A stretch of 64,000 nt of DNA, from contig NZ_JAAIWK010000006.1 in assembly GCF_011008565.1 (NCBI RefSeq), positions 1 through 64,000 on the forward strand, given 5' to 3'. The first letter of the stretch is position 1; every line of letters starts with the position of its first letter. The position numbers and the translations under genes are program-made. The notes beneath the pieces are model-generated. The model saw only the letters and a program-made list of their open reading frames with translations, was not told the origin of the DNA and searched no databases. This DNA is from Heyndrickxia ginsengihumi (GTDB lineage: Bacteria > Bacillota > Bacilli > Bacillales > Bacillaceae_C). Positions 7,427 through 52,801 of the stretch are shown here, piece by piece.

Positions 7427-8257
7427 TTACCAATCAAAATGATCTGGGTCTTTACCAAAGCGGTGGTCTTCATTTAATTGATCAATTTGCTTCATATCCT
7501 CGCTAGTTAATGTAAAAGCAAATAAATCCTTATTCTCCTCTATTCGACTTTCATGAACAGACTTAGGAATAATAATAACATCATTTTGTAGATGCCATCT
7601 TAAAATAATTTGTGCCGGGCTTTTTTCATATTTCTCAGCCAATTGCGTAATAAGTTCATGGTTAAGTAAGCGCCCTCTTGCAATTGGTGACCATGCTTCT
7701 ATTGCGATTTCATGCTCAGTACAAAAACGGATTAATGGCTTTTGCGTTAAATATGGATGTAATTCTACTTGGTTAATAACCGGTTTTTCATTCGCATGAG
7801 CAAATAAAGTTTCTAAATGATGTTCTTTAAAATTACTAACACCTATCGCTTTAACTACTCCCTCATCATAAAGTCTTTCTAATGCTTTCCACGTTTCTAA
7901 ATATGTATCTGGTCGAGGCCAATGTATCAAATATAAATCGATGTAATCCATATTTAATTGTTTTAAGCTTCTTTCAAAAGCTTTTAAAGTTGAATCATAA
8001 CCCTGTTCATCATTCCACACTTTTGTTGTTATGAATAACTCTTCACGCGGAATGCTTGACTGTTTAATCGCCTCCCCAACGCTATCTTCATTTTGGTAAA
8101 AACTTGCCGTGTCAATTAAGCGGTATCCTGACTGCAACGCATATAGAACAGACTGCATCGCTTCACGCTTATCCTCCATTTTATATACACCTAAACCAAC
8201 ATACGGAATTTGCACACCATTATGTAATGTTTTTTTGTCATGAAAACTCTTTACCAT
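7427..8257 (-). CDS. Aldo/keto reductase (YvgN/YtbE-like)
   Basis: A 276-residue NADPH-dependent aldo/keto reductase with a TIM-barrel fold. The catalytic tetrad can be read: Asp in LIDTASFY, Tyr in the same segment (FYQNE), Lys in ITTKVW and His in LIHWPRP. The NADPH-binding IIIPKS sits near the C-terminus. Length and motifs fit the Bacillus YvgN/YtbE group, which reduce glyoxal and methylglyoxal. The ATG follows GGAAGGTGAG. It appears monocistronic. The true substrate cannot be fixed from sequence. Confidence 0.88.
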   Translation of the reverse strand: MVKSFHDKKTLHNGVQIPYVGLGVYKMEDKREAMQSVLYALQSGYRLIDTASFYQNEDSVGEAIKQSSIPREELFITTKVWNDEQGYDSTLKAFERSLKQLNMDYIDLYLIHWPRPDTYLETWKALERLYDEGVVKAIGVSNFKEHHLETLFAHANEKPVINQVELHPYLTQKPLIRFCTEHEIAIEAWSPIARGRLLNHELITQLAEKYEKSPAQIILRWHLQNDVIIIPKSVHESRIEENKDLFAFTLTSEDMKQIDQLNEDHRFGKDPDHFDW

Positions 8258-8571
8258 TTATCTCACCTTCCAATTTTTAATGATTTCAAGCTTTTTTCCT
8301 TCAACAATAAAAAATAATCAAAACTTCTTTGGAAGTAGTAACTTATATTATATATTTTAACACATTGCTTAATTATTTTGATAATTGTAACATGTGCCCT
8401 GGTACTTCCCCAAAATGAAATTATGTAAAAAATGTATGTTTAATGATTTTATGTTGAGAAAACATATAAATAAGGATAAATAAAAAAATTTTCGACATTC
8501 TTCTTTTATATTCTTGTAAAATCAGATAAAATAAAGTCGTTTGATAATTTAAGTCTATAGGGGGCTAAAAA
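8258..8571. other. Intergenic gap, divergent promoter region
   Basis: AT-rich DNA between the divergent reductase and phosphate-uptake genes. It must carry both promoters, but I could not read an unambiguous -35/-10 pair. No riboswitch or small gene is seen. Confidence 0.4.
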
Positions 8572-11937: not shown

Positions 11938-12075
11938 GAAGCTAGGACAAAACTCAGAAATGGTTAGCGAAAGATGAACATTGCACAAATCAGCTCTGGA
12001 AAGCAAAGTCAAAGTATATTCCTGAGCGGGTTTGGAGCACAATATTCGGGTTCTCTTCAGTTATATACTTTCTGA
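11938..12075 (-). repeat. Dispersed repeat family B, partial copy
   Basis: Matches the reverse complement of the elements at 30548-30744 and 34625-34768. Shared landmarks are TAGGACAAAACTCA, GAACATTGCACAAATC, the GGAGC..CAATATTCGGG core and TATACTTTC. The 3' terminal repeat is lost. No coding potential. Confidence 0.65.
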
Positions 12076-30182: not shown

Positions 30183-30321
30183 TCTCTCACCTCTCATAGC
30201 GGTTTAATTCATTTATTAAATAATTGTAGTTCTTCAGGTCAATTGTGAAACAAATCGTTCACAGAAAAAAGTTAACTCGAGATTGTATCAACAATATCGT
30301 TAGATTATATCAAACAAACAA

Positions 30322-30367
30322 TAAAAAAACGCAATACTTCATTCTGAAATGAACGAAACACTGCGTT
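30322..30367 (-). terminator. Terminator downstream of tRNA-Gly
   Basis: Minus strand: AACGCAGTGTTTCGTTCAT pairs with ATGAAGTATTGCGTT, followed by TTTTTTTA. Confidence 0.8.
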
Positions 30368-30384
30368 AAATTTGTTATGTATAA

Positions 30385-30458
30385 TGGAGCGGGTGATGGG
30401 AATCGAACCCACGACAACAGCTTGGAAGGCTGTAGTTTTACCACTAAACTACACCCGC
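30385..30458 (-). tRNA. tRNA-Gly (anticodon TCC)
   Basis: A 74-nucleotide tRNA with encoded CCA. The acceptor stem is GCGGGTG paired with CACCCGC, the D-loop is TAGTTTAGTGGTAAAACTA, the anticodon loop is CTTCCAA (TCC at 30426-30424) and the T-loop is GGTTCGAATCC. All arms pair as expected. It stands alone, followed by an intrinsic terminator. Confidence 0.97.
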
Positions 30459-30547
30459 ATAAGTACTTGTCTCTCAAGCACATTTATATTATATAAAATA
30501 ATTTACGCTTTGTAAATAGTTATATAAAAAAATGTTTTATATAACTA

Positions 30548-30744
30548 AGGCTGGGACAAAAGGATAGTAACTAAAAAAATCCCGAATATTGCGCTCCAAC
30601 CCTGCTCCGGAAATATCCTTTGCTTTCCGCAGGCGGCTGGTGAGCCCGCATGCTAATGCACTGCGAGGCCTCACCGATGCCTTCTGGAACTAATTTGTAC
30701 AATGTTCGTCTTTAGCTAACCACTTTTGAGTTTTGTCCCAGCCC
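30548..30744. repeat. Dispersed repeat family B, full copy
   Basis: About 197 bp bounded by perfect 13-bp inverted repeats GGCTGGGACAAAA and TTTTGTCCCAGCC. The core contains CCCGAATATTGCGCTCC and CAATGTTCGTCTTTAGCTAACCACTTTT. Shorter copies occur at 34625-34768 and 11938-12075. Non-coding; it may act as a terminator-like structure for the FMN reductase gene that ends beside it. Confidence 0.8.
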
Positions 30745-30749
30745 ATCTT

Positions 30750-31295
30750 CTATTCTTCGATAAATTCTTCGAAGTTTCCAATTACTTTATCTAAAAACTC
30801 AATCGTTGATTGATCTATTAGTTTTCCTGCTTCATCAAATTTTTCAAACGCTTGTGTAATAACAACTTCGTTTTGGGAAGGCGGTAATACACGGGCTTGA
30901 ATGCCTGGACTTGCTAATACTTGACGCAATTGCAATTGTGCCCTTATCGTCCCCATAATACCAGGACTTGCACCAAGAAGCATTGTAGGTTTACCAGTCA
31001 TTTCGCGCTCTACTCTTGATAACCAATCAAGGGCGTTTTTCAAAACTCCGGAGAACGACCAATTATATTCTGGAGTTGCAATAATTACACCGTCAGCTTC
31101 TTTCACTGCTTTTTTAAACGCCACAACAGATTGGGGCGGTTCAAGTTCAATATCCTGATCGTAAAATGGTAGTTGTTTTAAATCTAATATTTCAATATTT
31201 AAACGATCTTTATAACGTTCTTTCAAATGCTTCACCAAATTCATATGAATAGAATCTTTGCGGATACTTCCAACTAAAGCGACAATTTGTTTCAT
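30750..31295 (-). CDS. NADPH-dependent FMN reductase family protein
   Basis: A 181-residue flavodoxin-fold reductase. It has the FMN phosphate loop VGSIRKDSIHMNLVKHL at the N-terminus and the family signature PEYNWSFSGVLKNALDWLSR near residue 80, with GASPGIMGTIRAQ after it. Related enzymes reduce FMN, quinones, azo dyes or chromate. The ATG at 31295 follows AAAGGAGT. A strong sigma-A promoter lies just upstream. Confidence 0.9.
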   Translation of the reverse strand: MKQIVALVGSIRKDSIHMNLVKHLKERYKDRLNIEILDLKQLPFYDQDIELEPPQSVVAFKKAVKEADGVIIATPEYNWSFSGVLKNALDWLSRVEREMTGKPTMLLGASPGIMGTIRAQLQLRQVLASPGIQARVLPPSQNEVVITQAFEKFDEAGKLIDQSTIEFLDKVIGNFEEFIEE

Positions 31296-31319
31296 TGTAA
31301 ATACTCCTTTTCTCATTGA

Positions 31320-31366
31320 GTTACTTTATGTAATCAAGTATATATTTGTAATTGTTTATTTGTCAA
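31320..31366 (-). promoter_or_regulatory. Sigma-A promoter of the FMN reductase gene
   Basis: Minus strand: consensus -35 TTGACA (31361-31366), 18-base spacer, -10 TATACT (31337-31342). A small dyad TTAC-TTTAT-GTAA (31321-31333) overlaps the start site and could be a MarR-type operator; that is speculative. Confidence 0.6.
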
Positions 31367-31378
31367 CCATTTTCTGTT

Positions 31379-31578
31379 TCATTTTATATAATGACTAGGT
31401 AGATATAGATCACTTAAAACCAATGTAACTATTTTAATCGCTCTTTCTAAAGAAACACCTCTCTCTAGAGACAATGTTGCAATGTTCGCAAAGATGATGC
31501 ACTCTTTTAGTGCTACTAAATCAATTGAAAGCACAGGCTTTATGTTAAATAAGCCCGTAAAATATCGTTTTTATTGAA
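31379..31578 (-). pseudogene. Gene remnant (unidentified)
   Basis: The minus strand can be read without stops for about 65 codons, from 31578 down to a TGA at 31379-31381. The C-terminal part looks protein-like (ECIIFANIATLSLERGVSLE, then IKIVTLVLSDLYLP). No start codon with a ribosome binding site exists and the upstream frame stops, so it is probably the tail of a decayed gene. Family not recognised. Confidence 0.3.
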
Positions 31579-31740
31579 TAAAATAAAGAAGATTCCATAA
31601 ATTAAAAATCGTACTTCTTTTATTATTATGATTGTGGCAATGTTCATTGTTATTTTTGTTCCTTTTGAGAAAACGTACGTAGAGAAATCGGGGACGCAAA
31701 TGAAGAAATGCGTATGAATATCGCTGAATATCATTTTACG
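31562..31740 (+). pseudogene. Decayed membrane protein fragment (ABC permease-like)
   Basis: The plus strand reads a hydrophobic N-terminus-like piece, KNRTSFIIMIVAMFIVIFVP, followed by EKTYVEK and then, after a one-base shift, IGDANEEMRMNIAEYHF. In-frame stops and a shift interrupt it. The pattern is like the first helix and loop of bacteriocin-type ABC permeases. Low certainty. Confidence 0.3.
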
Positions 31741-32095
31741 TGATCTAGATATAAAAGCATTTTGATGTTTTAAAAGAAGGAGCATTTACACGTAAAAACG
31801 AAATTAGTCAAACCACCACCTCTTTCTTTTGCACATGTAGAATTTGTTCTGTATTAATTATTGAGTAGGGGATTGCAGAAAATTTCATGAATGCAATCGA
31901 GGAAATGGATAATATGAGGTATTTGAAAATTGCAATGATATGTCGGGTGTAGCATATAAATATTATGATGGGATAGAAATGATAGGCGAAACCTGAATGT
32001 TTACGAAAATATATTGGTTGGGATGCTATTTGTAAGGATATGAGGATTAGGAGACGTTTATCAATATAGAACTGGTACTTGGATAGAATACATAG
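31741..32095. other. Degenerate DNA without a gene
   Basis: All six frames are broken by stops; short protein-like stretches can be read but not joined. It is probably decayed coding sequence continuing from the fragment upstream. Confidence 0.4.
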
Positions 32096-32130
32096 GATGA
32101 TGTGAGAAATAAAGGTCTCGCATCATTTTT
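32096..32130 (+). terminator. Intrinsic terminator just before the RNA locus
   Basis: ATGATGTGAGA pairs with TCTCGCATCAT (one G-T pair) and is followed by TTTTT. It ends six bases before the next promoter. Confidence 0.7.
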
Positions 32131-32135
32131 ATTTG

Positions 32136-32163
32136 TTTACAGGCTCTAAAATTTTGGTATACT
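32136..32163 (+). promoter_or_regulatory. Strong extended -10 promoter of the candidate RNA
   Basis: -35 TTTACA (32136-32141), 16-base spacer and -10 TATACT (32158-32163) preceded by TGG, an extended -10. It is among the best sigma-A matches in the window and drives no recognisable protein gene. Confidence 0.65.
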
Positions 32164-32189
32164 TTAAGTAGAAACAGACATAATTATAA

Positions 32190-32249
32190 ATGATGTGGTT
32201 ATCGTTTTTGTTCTTCATGTCTGGGAAAACGATTTTGGGAACTCTTTAG
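32190..32249 (+). CDS. Possible 19-residue leader peptide
   Basis: ATGATG opens a hydrophobic mini-frame (MMWLSFLFFMSGKTILGTL) ending at TAG just inside a terminator-like hairpin. No good ribosome binding site precedes it, so translation is doubtful. A chance frame is possible. Confidence 0.2.
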   Translation: MMWLSFLFFMSGKTILGTL

Positions 32250-32444
32250 GTGTGTGGCCGGGAGTTCCTTTTGCTTTATTAAGAAGGCAAGAGCCCTTCA
32301 CTCAGTCCCATAATTTAAAGTCGGACGTACCGTTGTGTGGTGGTGATACGAGTTAGGCTTTGCCTTCAGGTTACTACCAATGAAGGTAATGCTTGATTGC
32401 CTCTACGATTCCTCGTGAAAGCGCATTAATGCAGGATTGTGGCA

Positions 32445-32516
32445 CTAAATTATGGTAGTTGATGTGGTCTTGTATTTATGCTTGTGGCTCTTCATGCTGG
32501 GCTCACCTCCTTTCAT
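32445..32516 (-). CDS. Possible antisense micro-ORF with sequestered ribosome binding site
   Basis: On the minus strand a near-perfect Shine-Dalgarno AAAGGAGGTG (32513-32504) lies eight bases before ATG 32495, opening a basic 16-residue peptide, MKSHKHKYKTTSTTII; an ATG at 32516 would give 23 residues. The Shine-Dalgarno can pair with CACCTTCTT just upstream. Sequestered sites and antisense RNAs are features of type I toxin loci, but this peptide lacks the usual hydrophobic toxin helix. Confidence 0.3.
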   Translation of the reverse strand: MKGGEPSMKSHKHKYKTTSTTII

Positions 32517-32583
32517 AAAGACAAGAAGGTGGAACCGTCCGACAATATTATTTAGCATTGGTTTTAATAAAGCGTACAAAAAA

Positions 32584-32613
32584 TAAAAACGGCCTTGTTT
32601 GGGGTCGTTTTTA
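32584..32613 (+). terminator. Terminator of the candidate RNA (bidirectional form)
   Basis: AAAAACGGCC pairs with GGGGTCGTTTTT around a TTGTTT loop, with T run after it and A run before. Confidence 0.7.
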
Positions 32614-32736
32614 TTTCATTCAAATATAATTTATCAAATGGATTTACATATAGTGGATAATATGTGATTTTTACGTATTTTTGATGAATTTGCTTATAGA
32701 GGTAGTATCATTTTTAAATGTTTTTTAAAATAACAT

Positions 32737-33146
32737 TTAAAATCTAAAAAGAACTCGTTTTTCTAAAATGACTAATCCTTCTCTTCCATATATCATCCGT
32801 TTAATTGTTCTTAAACGATTGATTTGTCCTTCAAACAAGCCGTTACTGTACGGGGATAAAAAAGCATTCTTTACTGCTTGAAGATCACTCTGTAATCTAA
32901 ATGCATAATAAATAATAAGGATTTTTTTATTTGATAATTGTTCACGAAGCCATTGTAAAAACATGTCCAAATTTTTCGTTTCAATTGCTCTGCGAAACGA
33001 CTGAATAATCGCTTTAAAGGGGGATATCGCTCAAAATATTGATTTAAATCACGTTGCTCCTTTAGCTTCCACATCCATATAAAATGGCAACCCTGGCCCG
33101 AGTGGATAAAGGCATCTTCATGGATGGTACCTTTCTTGCTGTTCAT
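32737..33146 (-). pseudogene. ISL3-family transposase, C-terminal remnant
   Basis: Two overlapping minus-strand frames together read like the C-terminal part of an ISL3 transposase. The last part, SPYSNGLFEGQINRLRTIKRMIYGREGL, is the family's hallmark ending; the earlier part contains FERYPPLKRLFSRFAEQL. A frameshift near 32965 joins them. The DDE core and N-terminal zinc finger are missing. No inverted repeats were recognised, so only a relic remains. Confidence 0.75.
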
Positions 33147-33369
33147 CAGTTTATAGATTGTCTATGTTGCGATGTCCAATGTGATGCGATCAGACATATG
33201 ATAAGCCAGAATTCATTAATGGATGCATCTTTTATTACAATTAATGAAAATGTGAATATTACATGCTTGGAAACGATAGCCGTTGAAAAAAGAATGATTG
33301 ATAGAATTAAGGGCAACCGAAAATAGGGATAAGTGGCAATGCCCCCTTATCTATCCATCATTATAGCAT

Positions 33370-33527
33370 ATGAAAAGATTTGATTCATCGGATATTATTG
33401 CTCTATTGTTGTCAGTGGTATATTTAACATCAATTAATTTCCATGATTTAGGTTCCTTAGTATCGTGGGATTCATGCTAGTTTGTATCTATGTTGTGATA
33501 TTCGTGGTAAAGATTTTTCTTAAATAA
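33370..33527 (+). pseudogene. Frameshifted small membrane protein gene
   Basis: ATG 33370 opens KRFDSSDIIALLLSVVYLTS and runs into a stop at codon 37. One base out of frame the reading continues as LSIVGFMLVCIYVVIFVVKIFLK to a stop at 33525-33527. Together they would make a protein of about 52 residues with two helices. No clear ribosome binding site is seen. Family unknown. Confidence 0.35.
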
Positions 33528-33856
33528 GGGAGTAAAGTTATCTCACTTGTTTTTAATTATTAATTTTAAAGATCATTAATCGATAATATAACCATAAAAA
33601 ATACGACCATAAAAATAGTGAAAAGAATATGAGTAGAATAACAATGTAATCATGATTAAAACGGTATAAAAAATTTGATTTTCAAACAAAAGGAATTAGC
33701 CCAAAGTAACTGATGTATTAATCGGGGCTGAGGACACATTCAGCATTGGCATCCAATTAAAGAACAGTACTGCATTGTCACGATCCATAAAGGCATGAGT
33801 TTGTCGGTTTCATTTTTCTTGAATGGGGTATTCTACAAGTATAAGGATGTGAAACC
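33528..33856. other. Intergenic gap before marC
   Basis: AT-rich. No coding frame, hairpin terminator or riboswitch is recognised. It presumably holds the marC promoter. Confidence 0.4.
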
Positions 33857-34480
33857 ATGATTGCATATATTTTAAAACTAGGCTTTAGTTTTTTTGCGGT
33901 TATGAACCCGCTTGGAAACATTCCAATTTTTATATCACTTACAAATCACTATAGTATTAAAGAAAAACGGCAAACAGCTAAAAAGGCAGTAATCGTTTCT
34001 TTCATTATTTTGACCGTTTTTTTAGTTTTAGGAAATGTCTTATTTAATTTATTTGGCATAACAATCCATGCTTTCCGTATTGCTGGAGGTATTTTAATTT
34101 TCGGGATTGCCTTTAACCTACTGCACGCAAAAACCTCAAAAGCACAAAGTCCGGAGGCTGCAGAACAAAAAGAGGCTTATGAAAAAGAGGATATTTCCAT
34201 TACACCTCTTGCACTTCCAATACTTGCTGGACCTGGTACAATTGCTACTGTGATGGCCCACTCTTCTTCACATGCACCGATTCATTTATTAAGTGTTGTC
34301 ATTGGGTATACTGTTGTCCTTGCCCTAACATTTCTATTGTTTTATTTCTCATCTTCTATCATTTCAAAAATTGGTCAAGGGGGACTAAATGTTATTACAA
34401 GGCTAATGGGCTTAATATTAGCAGTTATGGCCGTTCAAATGATAGCTAGCGGTATTCACGGCCTATTTCCAAAATTATAA
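33857..34480 (+). CDS. MarC family (UPF0056) integral membrane protein
   Basis: A 207-residue protein with six hydrophobic helices. It has the MarC pattern FFAVMNPLGNIPIFISLT at the N-terminus and ITPLALPILAGPGTIATVM in the second half, with NVITRLMGLILAVMAVQMIASG at the end. Function is unknown; despite the name, MarC is not an antibiotic-resistance factor. The ATG follows AAGGATGTG. Likely monocistronic. Closest B. subtilis equivalent is probably YvbG. Confidence 0.9.
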   Translation: MIAYILKLGFSFFAVMNPLGNIPIFISLTNHYSIKEKRQTAKKAVIVSFIILTVFLVLGNVLFNLFGITIHAFRIAGGILIFGIAFNLLHAKTSKAQSPEAAEQKEAYEKEDISITPLALPILAGPGTIATVMAHSSSHAPIHLLSVVIGYTVVLALTFLLFYFSSSIISKIGQGGLNVITRLMGLILAVMAVQMIASGIHGLFPKL

Positions 34481-34527
34481 AAAAAGGATAGATTCTCCTC
34501 CCTCTTAAACTGCCGACTATCTTTTTT
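34481..34527 (+). terminator. Terminator after marC
   Basis: AAAAAGGATAG pairs with CTATCTTTTTT across a 25-base loop. Confidence 0.65.
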
Positions 34528-34624: not shown

Positions 34625-34768
34625 AGACTGGGACGAAAGTATATTAACTAAAGAATCCCCGAATATTGCGCTTTTCCCCCGCTTCGGAAATATCTTTCGC
34701 TTTCTGGAGCCGATTTGTGCAATGTTCGTCTTTAGTTAACCACTTTTAAAGTCTTGTCCCAGTCTCTT
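34625..34768. repeat. Dispersed repeat family B, internally shortened copy
   Basis: About 144 bp between inverted repeats GAGACTGGGAC and GTCCCAGTCTC. The core matches the 30548 copy (CCCCGAATATTGCGC, CAATGTTCGTCTTTAGTTAACCACTTTT) but lacks about 50 bp of its middle. Confidence 0.8.
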
Positions 34769-51832: not shown

Positions 51833-52801
51833 TTGCGTCCAATACTTTTAGGAATTTGTGCTGCCTTCTTCTTCGCATTTACTTTTATTCTTAATCGGGC
51901 AATGGAATTATCAGGAGGAAGTTGGATTTGGAGTGCATCTTTAAGATATATATTTATGGTTCCATTTCTTATTCTTATCGTGATCTCCAGAAAAAATTTC
52001 TTGGCTTTATTAAAGATTATGAAAGAGAAACCTTTGTCCTGGTTATGTTGGAGCTTTGTAGGATTCGTACTTTTTTATGCACCTTTATGTTTTGCTGCTA
52101 CATTTGCCCCAGGATGGCTTATAGCAGGTACTTGGCAAATTACAATCATATCTGGTTCATTGCTCGTCCCCTTTTTCTCAAAAACAATTGTAACTACGAA
52201 TGGACCAATACAAGTTCGAGAAAGATTGCCAATTAGAGGATTGTTCATGTCTGTTATTATTGTGCTAGGTATTGTCATTATCCAGCTCGAACAAGCAAAT
52301 CACCTATCTATACAAAATGTCATACTTGGAGTATTGCCTGTTATCATTGCTTCCTTTGCCTATCCACTTGGCAATCGTAAAATGATGGATTTGTGCGGTG
52401 AACGCTTAGATACTTTTCAACGTGTACTTGGGATGACGTTAGCGAGCTTACCATTTTGGCTGCTATTGTCTTTATACGGTCTATTTACTACAGGAGCACC
52501 GAGTAGGCAACAAACCTTTCAATCTTTTATCGTTGCCATTTGTTCAGGGGTGATTGCCACTGTACTATTTTTTAGAGCAACTGATTTAGTTAAAGGAAAT
52601 ATGCAGAAGCTTGCTGCTGTTGAAGCGACGCAATCTATGGAAGTATTATTTTCTGTTATTGGTGAATTAGTACTGCTTTCTGCTCCGCTTCCATCGCTTT
52701 TGTCTTGGGGTGGAATGTTCGTCATTATGGTTGGCATGATTTTACACAGTTATTTCTCTCATAAAAGTGAACAATCGAGCACCCAAGAAATCAGTGCTTA
52801 A
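51833..52801 (+). CDS. EmrE-like DMT superfamily transporter
   Basis: A 322-residue protein with ten hydrophobic helices, of the multidrug-resistance-efflux (EmrE-type, ten-helix) group. N-terminus RPILLGICAAFFFAFTFILNRAM with GGSWIWSASLRYIFM, middle FVGFVLFYAPLCFAA and end VEATQSMEVLFSVIGELVLL. It starts with TTG, seven bases after GAGGTGA. Substrate unknown. Monocistronic with its own terminator. Confidence 0.82.
   Translation: MRPILLGICAAFFFAFTFILNRAMELSGGSWIWSASLRYIFMVPFLILIVISRKNFLALLKIMKEKPLSWLCWSFVGFVLFYAPLCFAATFAPGWLIAGTWQITIISGSLLVPFFSKTIVTTNGPIQVRERLPIRGLFMSVIIVLGIVIIQLEQANHLSIQNVILGVLPVIIASFAYPLGNRKMMDLCGERLDTFQRVLGMTLASLPFWLLLSLYGLFTTGAPSRQQTFQSFIVAICSGVIATVLFFRATDLVKGNMQKLAAVEATQSMEVLFSVIGELVLLSAPLPSLLSWGGMFVIMVGMILHSYFSHKSEQSSTQEISA

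Follow-up and report, generated by a model that had tools for sequence, protein, structure and literature searches.

A candidate orphan structured RNA with its own promoter and terminator in a decaying stretch of the Heyndrickxia ginsengihumi genome

OLE, ROOL and GOLLD are large, ornate, free-standing bacterial RNAs. RNAIII of S. aureus has 14 stem-loops and two domain-closing helices formed by long-range pairing, as well as C-rich motifs that target ribosome-binding sites and are described as accessible; the same source (PMC3053349) presents another RNA, SprD, as island-borne. In type I toxin mRNAs, sequestration of the ribosome-binding site is a known arrangement (PMC8309996). In this paper, we describe a locus in Heyndrickxia ginsengihumi that can be compared with each of these systems and that we read, tentatively and at less than even odds, as the gene for an orphan, free-standing, structured non-coding RNA of about 444 nt, possibly acting in trans and RNAIII-like in plan.

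The window, by which we mean the whole stretch of DNA analysed, comprises 64,000 nt of H. ginsengihumi (assembly GCF_011008565.1, contig NZ_JAAIWK010000006.1, positions 1-64,000), and all coordinates given below are those of the window. The promoter scan places a sigma-A-type promoter on the plus strand at 32136-32163 (TTTACA, 16 bases, TG-extended TATACT). A preliminary description of this DNA had counted it among the best promoters in the window: its elements and coordinates are exactly as described there, but when the 64 kb were scanned with one extra point for a TG, 40 sites scored 10 or more out of 12 and this one shared a place among the best nine (TG precedes the -10 element in four of the 40, this one included), so that its quality is good, not exceptional. 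Promoter-like sites per se show no enrichment over shuffled sequence (13 observed vs 21.0 expected). The insulating terminator proposed upstream is present as a plus-strand terminator-like hairpin with a T-run at 32094-32129, which stops 6 bases 5' of the -35 element. With a start inferred 7 bases 3' of the -10 element, the predicted transcript runs from 32170 to 32613 (plus strand, ~444 nt) and would end in the closing terminator, a hairpin with a U-run at 32584-32613 (plus strand; 13 pairs, predicted at a probability of 0.94) that is followed by TTTC. The segments 32581-32594 and 32603-32616 are 93% complementary and bring an A-run and a U-run to the two sides of this hairpin, so that it may be bidirectional. 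It is absent from the terminator scanner's list, an omission that we ascribe to the U-run being counted within the stem.

At the level of sequence, then, the candidate has a promoter and a terminator of its own, as a small RNA of the RNAIII type should. The main rival to the small-RNA reading, which we judge to be on a par with it, is coincidence in decaying DNA, in which a promoter has arisen by chance near residual hairpins and terminators and no functional RNA is made. Promoter quality of this grade at 40 sites in 64 kb is what coincidence would lead one to expect, as is the fact that both flanks are relics; the signals themselves, on the other hand, are intact and lie in gene-like order and spacing, and the G+C content of the candidate (41% overall, 38-46% by part) exceeds the 31% found in either flank.

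The predicted fold consists of two 5' hairpins followed by a branched domain of ~300 nt under two nested long-range helices, all on the plus strand. The first hairpin (32175-32223) has an outer 7-bp stem with a probability of 0.98, and the second (32237-32269) a 10-bp stem, after which comes TTTGCTTT. The outer long-range helix joins 32272-32282 to 32564-32574 (mean probability 0.93), whilst the inner one joins 32320-32327 to 32536-32543. The arms of the latter, GTCGGACG and CGTCCGAC, are exactly complementary, with pair probabilities of 0.86-0.99, bearing out the perfect pairing first noticed between 32320 and 32536. The closed domain of about 208 bases that was drawn from that pairing does not stand as such, as the outer helix widens the domain to about 303 nt. 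Within it lie a hairpin at 32351-32398 (17 + 3 pairs, probability about 0.95) and another, with several G-U pairs, at 32423-32481 (probability 0.96).

How far such helices could be expected by chance depends on whether they are taken singly or together. Inverted repeats of 8 bp that contain five or more G/C and have their arms separated by 100-300 turn up in 7% of 1000 shuffled sequences, and 12 of 287 tiles of the real sequence have one; the inner helix alone is weak evidence and is compatible with coincidence. The nested pair of 10- and 8-bp long-range helices speaks against coincidence, being found in just 10 of 4000 shuffles and at two of 573 tile positions in the window (starts 7993 and 32191). 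The stretch at about 7993-8436 is the sole other tile in the window with such a nested pair.

The transcript has a predicted fold energy of -136.3 kcal/mol, corresponding to z = -3.65 and -4.21 in two runs, in each of which none of 100 shuffles did as well. Amongst 193 scanned 444-nt tiles, the one starting at 32101 (z -3.64) ranks seventh. Six tiles reach z <= -3.65: two of them, starting at 52801 and 53101, belong to the purine riboswitch, the tile at 30301 to a tRNA and a repeat and that at 34501 to a repeat, and the other two start at 1 and 11701. Tile 1-444 folds strongly in its own right (z -4.8). Without the terminator, the z of the plus strand falls to -2.73, with two of 100 shuffles doing as well, a further point for coincidence. 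Across four sub-stretches, z lies between -2.47 and -3.05 for the plus strand and between -1.21 and -4.24 for the minus strand, and in three of five stretches the minus strand is at least as unusual for its composition (z -3.96 to -4.24 vs -2.73 to -3.05); it is less unusual for the whole transcript (-3.75 vs -4.21) and for the inner part (-1.21 vs -2.47). The folding statistics thus leave the strand undecided, and it is the promoter and terminator that point to the plus strand.

Comparison with the 16S rRNA of the same genome reveals a 12-nt copy of the rRNA 3' end, that is, of the anti-Shine-Dalgarno (anti-SD) sequence, at 32503-32514 on the plus strand. Its 11-nt core occurs once in the 64 kb, counting either strand, against an expectation of 0.04, although the stretch was noticed post hoc and serves two readings at once, as a plus-strand seed and as a minus-strand Shine-Dalgarno sequence. 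In the predicted ensemble, the bases of the anti-SD stretch mostly pair with 32520-32531 in a hairpin at 32504-32531, the probability of being unpaired lying below 0.26 at 11 of the 12 bases, whereas an RNAIII-like small RNA should offer an accessible C-rich or anti-SD seed. A plus-strand mRNA-binding seed would consequently need a switch.

Read on the minus strand, the same stretch is a perfect Shine-Dalgarno sequence, AAAGGAGGTGA (32503-32513), unique in the window and located 7 bases before the ATG of a 16-codon frame (32445-32495, minus strand). The functional product might then be a short minus-strand gene or leader, for example what is left of a type I toxin-antitoxin system in which the plus-strand RNA acted as the antisense partner; we regard this as unlikely. 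It gains from the minus-strand z of -4.24 without the terminator and from the predicted pairing of the Shine-Dalgarno sequence in a hairpin on this strand also, which would match the sequestration noted above for type I toxin mRNAs (PMC8309996). It loses from the peptide, which at 16 residues is hydrophilic rather than hydrophobic, and from the promoter scan of 32000-32900, in which no minus-strand promoter-like site reached the scanner's threshold at 32540-32900. Thr and Ile codons abound at the end of the frame, a pattern resembling that of amino-acid leader peptides. A search for the minus-strand leader pattern, allowing up to three mismatches, found one copy in the genome itself (the present one) and seven weaker matches (2-3 mismatches) in six other genomes of the family, the reversed control giving one match. 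We also considered a repeated toxin leader, an idea to which these counts, in the genome and in the family, lend no support.

Between 32140 and 32600 there are 14 stop-to-stop frames with 20 or more residues, and not one of them attains a Pfam cut-off (best E 0.058); ten of the 14 were scanned against NCBIfam with no match, and three start-to-stop frames against PHROGs gave a best E of 0.88. A tblastn search with one 30-residue frame gave nothing in phages and, in plasmids, two records at E 4, none of it meaningful. The 44-codon plus-strand frame at 32452-32586 has a hydrophobic start and then turns basic; by eye it is without a good Shine-Dalgarno sequence, and it matches no family better than E 0.88. 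A protein relic inside the RNA was rejected as an explanation, the matches being weak (E 0.058 or worse) and no cut-off being reached.

The Infernal/Rfam search that had been suggested for the locus was run with Rfam 15, at gathering thresholds over the window and, for the candidate, also up to E 10. No family exceeds its gathering threshold in the candidate, where the lowest E is 0.017 (22.8 bits vs a threshold of 114); the matches at threshold in the window are a purine riboswitch and a tRNA, both outside it. The overall view put forward in the preliminary description, of a structured RNA that has its own promoter and terminator and does not belong to the housekeeping RNAs, agrees with the sequence, with the folding statistics and with the lack of any Rfam match above threshold. 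DNA searches show the sequence to be single-copy in its own genome. Two of 60 relatives matched, one being the genome itself and the other matching the terminator over 34 nt, and amongst 34 genomes of the family the genome itself alone matched (0 of 33 others). The order and class sets were samples of larger groups, with two first-look candidates scored per genome: at E 0.05, 53 of 397 order genomes matched, including its own, the remaining pieces of 19-43 nt being judged chance. The class sample of 398 genomes yielded three matches, of which one was the genome itself and the others, each about 30 nt long, were put down to chance as well. No DNA match at E 0.1 was obtained in plasmids or phages, whilst a 141-nt minus-strand query drew 16 plasmid and six phage records at E 1-5, likewise judged chance.

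Covariance and pattern searches led to the same result. A 230-nt covariance model (R1), built from one sequence, found the genome's own copy alone in the 397 order genomes (first look, stricter filters, five candidates scored per genome). On 19 + 29 + 83 + 54 + 17 further sources, its lowest E values outside the window were 0.044 (L033), 0.08 (L028) and 0.11 (L110), the matches at L033 and L028 being 21-22 nt around the anti-SD stretch. Four loci (L028, L029, L033 and L042) were considered as true relatives by way of that stretch and set aside, resembling by eye gene starts or coding sequence. Pattern matches in viral and genome contigs were checked with model R1 or for the complementary arm. 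An exact 16-mer scan of genome contigs gave 84 stretches in scattered taxa, 80 of which were taken as loci, and behind none of the 81 16-mer matches in these loci was the complementary arm found; the scans of viral contigs gave 16, 3, 29, 0, 0, 17 and 0 stretches. No relative of the candidate was thus found in Rfam, plasmids, phages, the family or the sampled order and class genomes, a result that counts towards coincidence. The preliminary description took the retention of intact signals amid decay to suggest function; on the present evidence the candidate is a plausible but unproven regulatory RNA.

The setting is one of gene decay. In two congeners (G001 and G002), the genes for a NAAT-family (MarC-like) transporter and queG (NCBIfam names) are a few hundred bases apart; a third congener has a merely partial transporter match and a fourth has none. 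In H. ginsengihumi the gap between the two genes is about 3.7 kb (30197 to 33857) and contains a tRNA-Gly gene, an inverted-repeat element, an FMN reductase gene, a decayed cation-diffusion-facilitator (CDF) gene, the candidate RNA and an ISL3 relic. The CDF relic (about 31400-31870) lies just 5' of the RNA and has, judging by the spacing of its pieces, an internal loss of ~360 nt; the pieces match intact genes in five of 397 order genomes, and the two proteins checked are CDF transporters. At 31880-31914 there is a 35-37 nt antisense match to the mannitol PTS gene mtlA of two other genera, either relic or chance. A short repeat has three copies in the window (30549-30743, 34625-34762 and 11941-12071; 81-88% identity), of which the first has 13-nt perfect inverted ends at 30549/30731; strong folds are predicted for its tiles, with z from about -4.6 down to -9.6, and it is probably a MITE-like intergenic element.

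Downstream, a minus-strand ISL3 transposase relic matches NCBIfam at E 2.1e-14, below the full-length cut-off, and falls just below the cut-off of Pfam; its best plasmid match has 55.7% identity. An end sequence that follows the stop of the transposase is common to the three plasmid copies nearest to it, and the counterpart of this end here lies, by eye, at about 32662-32676, some 50 bases beyond the RNA terminator; no match was found for the left end. Since the right end falls outside the terminator, the RNA most likely lies beside the ISL3 element and not within it, in keeping with an earlier suspicion that any link between the two may be chance. The closeness of this end to a transcript that finishes in a terminator would also fit a different history, in which the RNA once served a downstream gene as a cis-acting leader (an attenuator or something riboswitch-like) and the insertion of ISL3, about 50 nt 3' of it, removed that gene. 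No gene start is seen behind the terminator (after 32613), and we consider such a leader improbable; its likeness to T-box leaders is taken up below.

Under the small-RNA reading, transcription from the extended -10 promoter would run for about 444 nt, up to the gene's own terminator, in a lineage-specific and otherwise decaying stretch. The RNA would be a trans-acting riboregulator with an architecture like that of S. aureus RNAIII: the anti-SD hairpin (32503-32531) would open and pair with the ribosome-binding sites of target mRNAs, blocking their translation. We favour this reading because the locus forms a complete promoter-to-terminator unit, its fold beats 100 of 100 shuffles twice and takes seventh place amongst 193 tiles, nested long-range helices are so infrequent in shuffled sequence (10 of 4000), no frame of 14 reaches the Pfam cut-off, the G+C content stands at 41% between flanks of 31%, there is a 12-nt identity to the 16S 3' end with a core unique in 64 kb, and RNAIII offers a precedent for both long-range helices and C-rich motifs. 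We hold it tentatively because no homologue appeared in the genomes, plasmids and phages searched, the anti-SD stretch is mostly paired where RNAIII-type motifs are described as accessible, in three of five stretches the fold of the minus strand is no less unusual than that of the plus strand, the plus-strand z is just -2.7 without the terminator and the candidate's features were selected post hoc. Every single mechanism stays below even odds; summed over the plus-strand readings, the chance that some functional RNA is made from this strand is close to that of a coin toss. A bolder proposal, that the locus represents a new, narrowly distributed class of domain-closed RNAs of ~440 nt in which a switchable hairpin with a copy of the 16S tail gates ribosome access to mRNAs, strikes us as doubtful. 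If transcribed and functional, the RNA would be a lineage-specific regulator kept intact amid gene decay, an unusual mimic of the rRNA tail and a testable case of new regulatory RNAs arising in islands; if not functional, the locus shows how closely chance alone can bring the signals of a promoter, a terminator and helices into agreement.

Against this background, the described systems can be set beside the candidate. Its multi-branched domain under terminal helices, as predicted, brings to mind a large ornate RNA class, new or known, forming an RNA-only or RNA-protein assembly. OLE, ROOL and GOLLD are longer than the ~444-nt candidate and give no covariance match to it in Rfam, and it is confined to one genome among those searched; we think membership of such a class very unlikely. 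With T-box leaders, which sense tRNA upstream of amino-acid genes, it shares a 3' part that resembles the T-box core motif, followed by a terminator. The list of 11 Rfam matches with E values up to 10 contains no T-box, no alternative pairing of the terminator is predicted (the T-box-like strand pairs instead with 32320-32327) and no downstream gene is seen. The Bacillus type I pairs bsrG/SR4 and txpA/RatA have in common with the candidate an extended Shine-Dalgarno sequence hidden on one strand and a short structured RNA with a terminator, but here the corresponding frame has 16 codons and is hydrophilic, where a type I toxin would be a hydrophobic peptide of under about 60 residues; the scan of 32540-32900 showed no promoter-like site for the minus strand, and no family match was found. 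RNAIII itself is likewise missing from the Rfam list up to E 10, no delta-hemolysin-like frame is recognised in the candidate and the candidate's anti-SD stretch lies within a predicted stem. In plan, the candidate resembles S. aureus RNAIII and the C-rich-motif small RNAs RsaE and SprD, which are like the candidate in being long and multi-hairpin, with domain-closing long-range helices and a sequence able to pair with Shine-Dalgarno sequences; the comparison with RNAIII suggests how the RNA might work, not the family to which it belongs.
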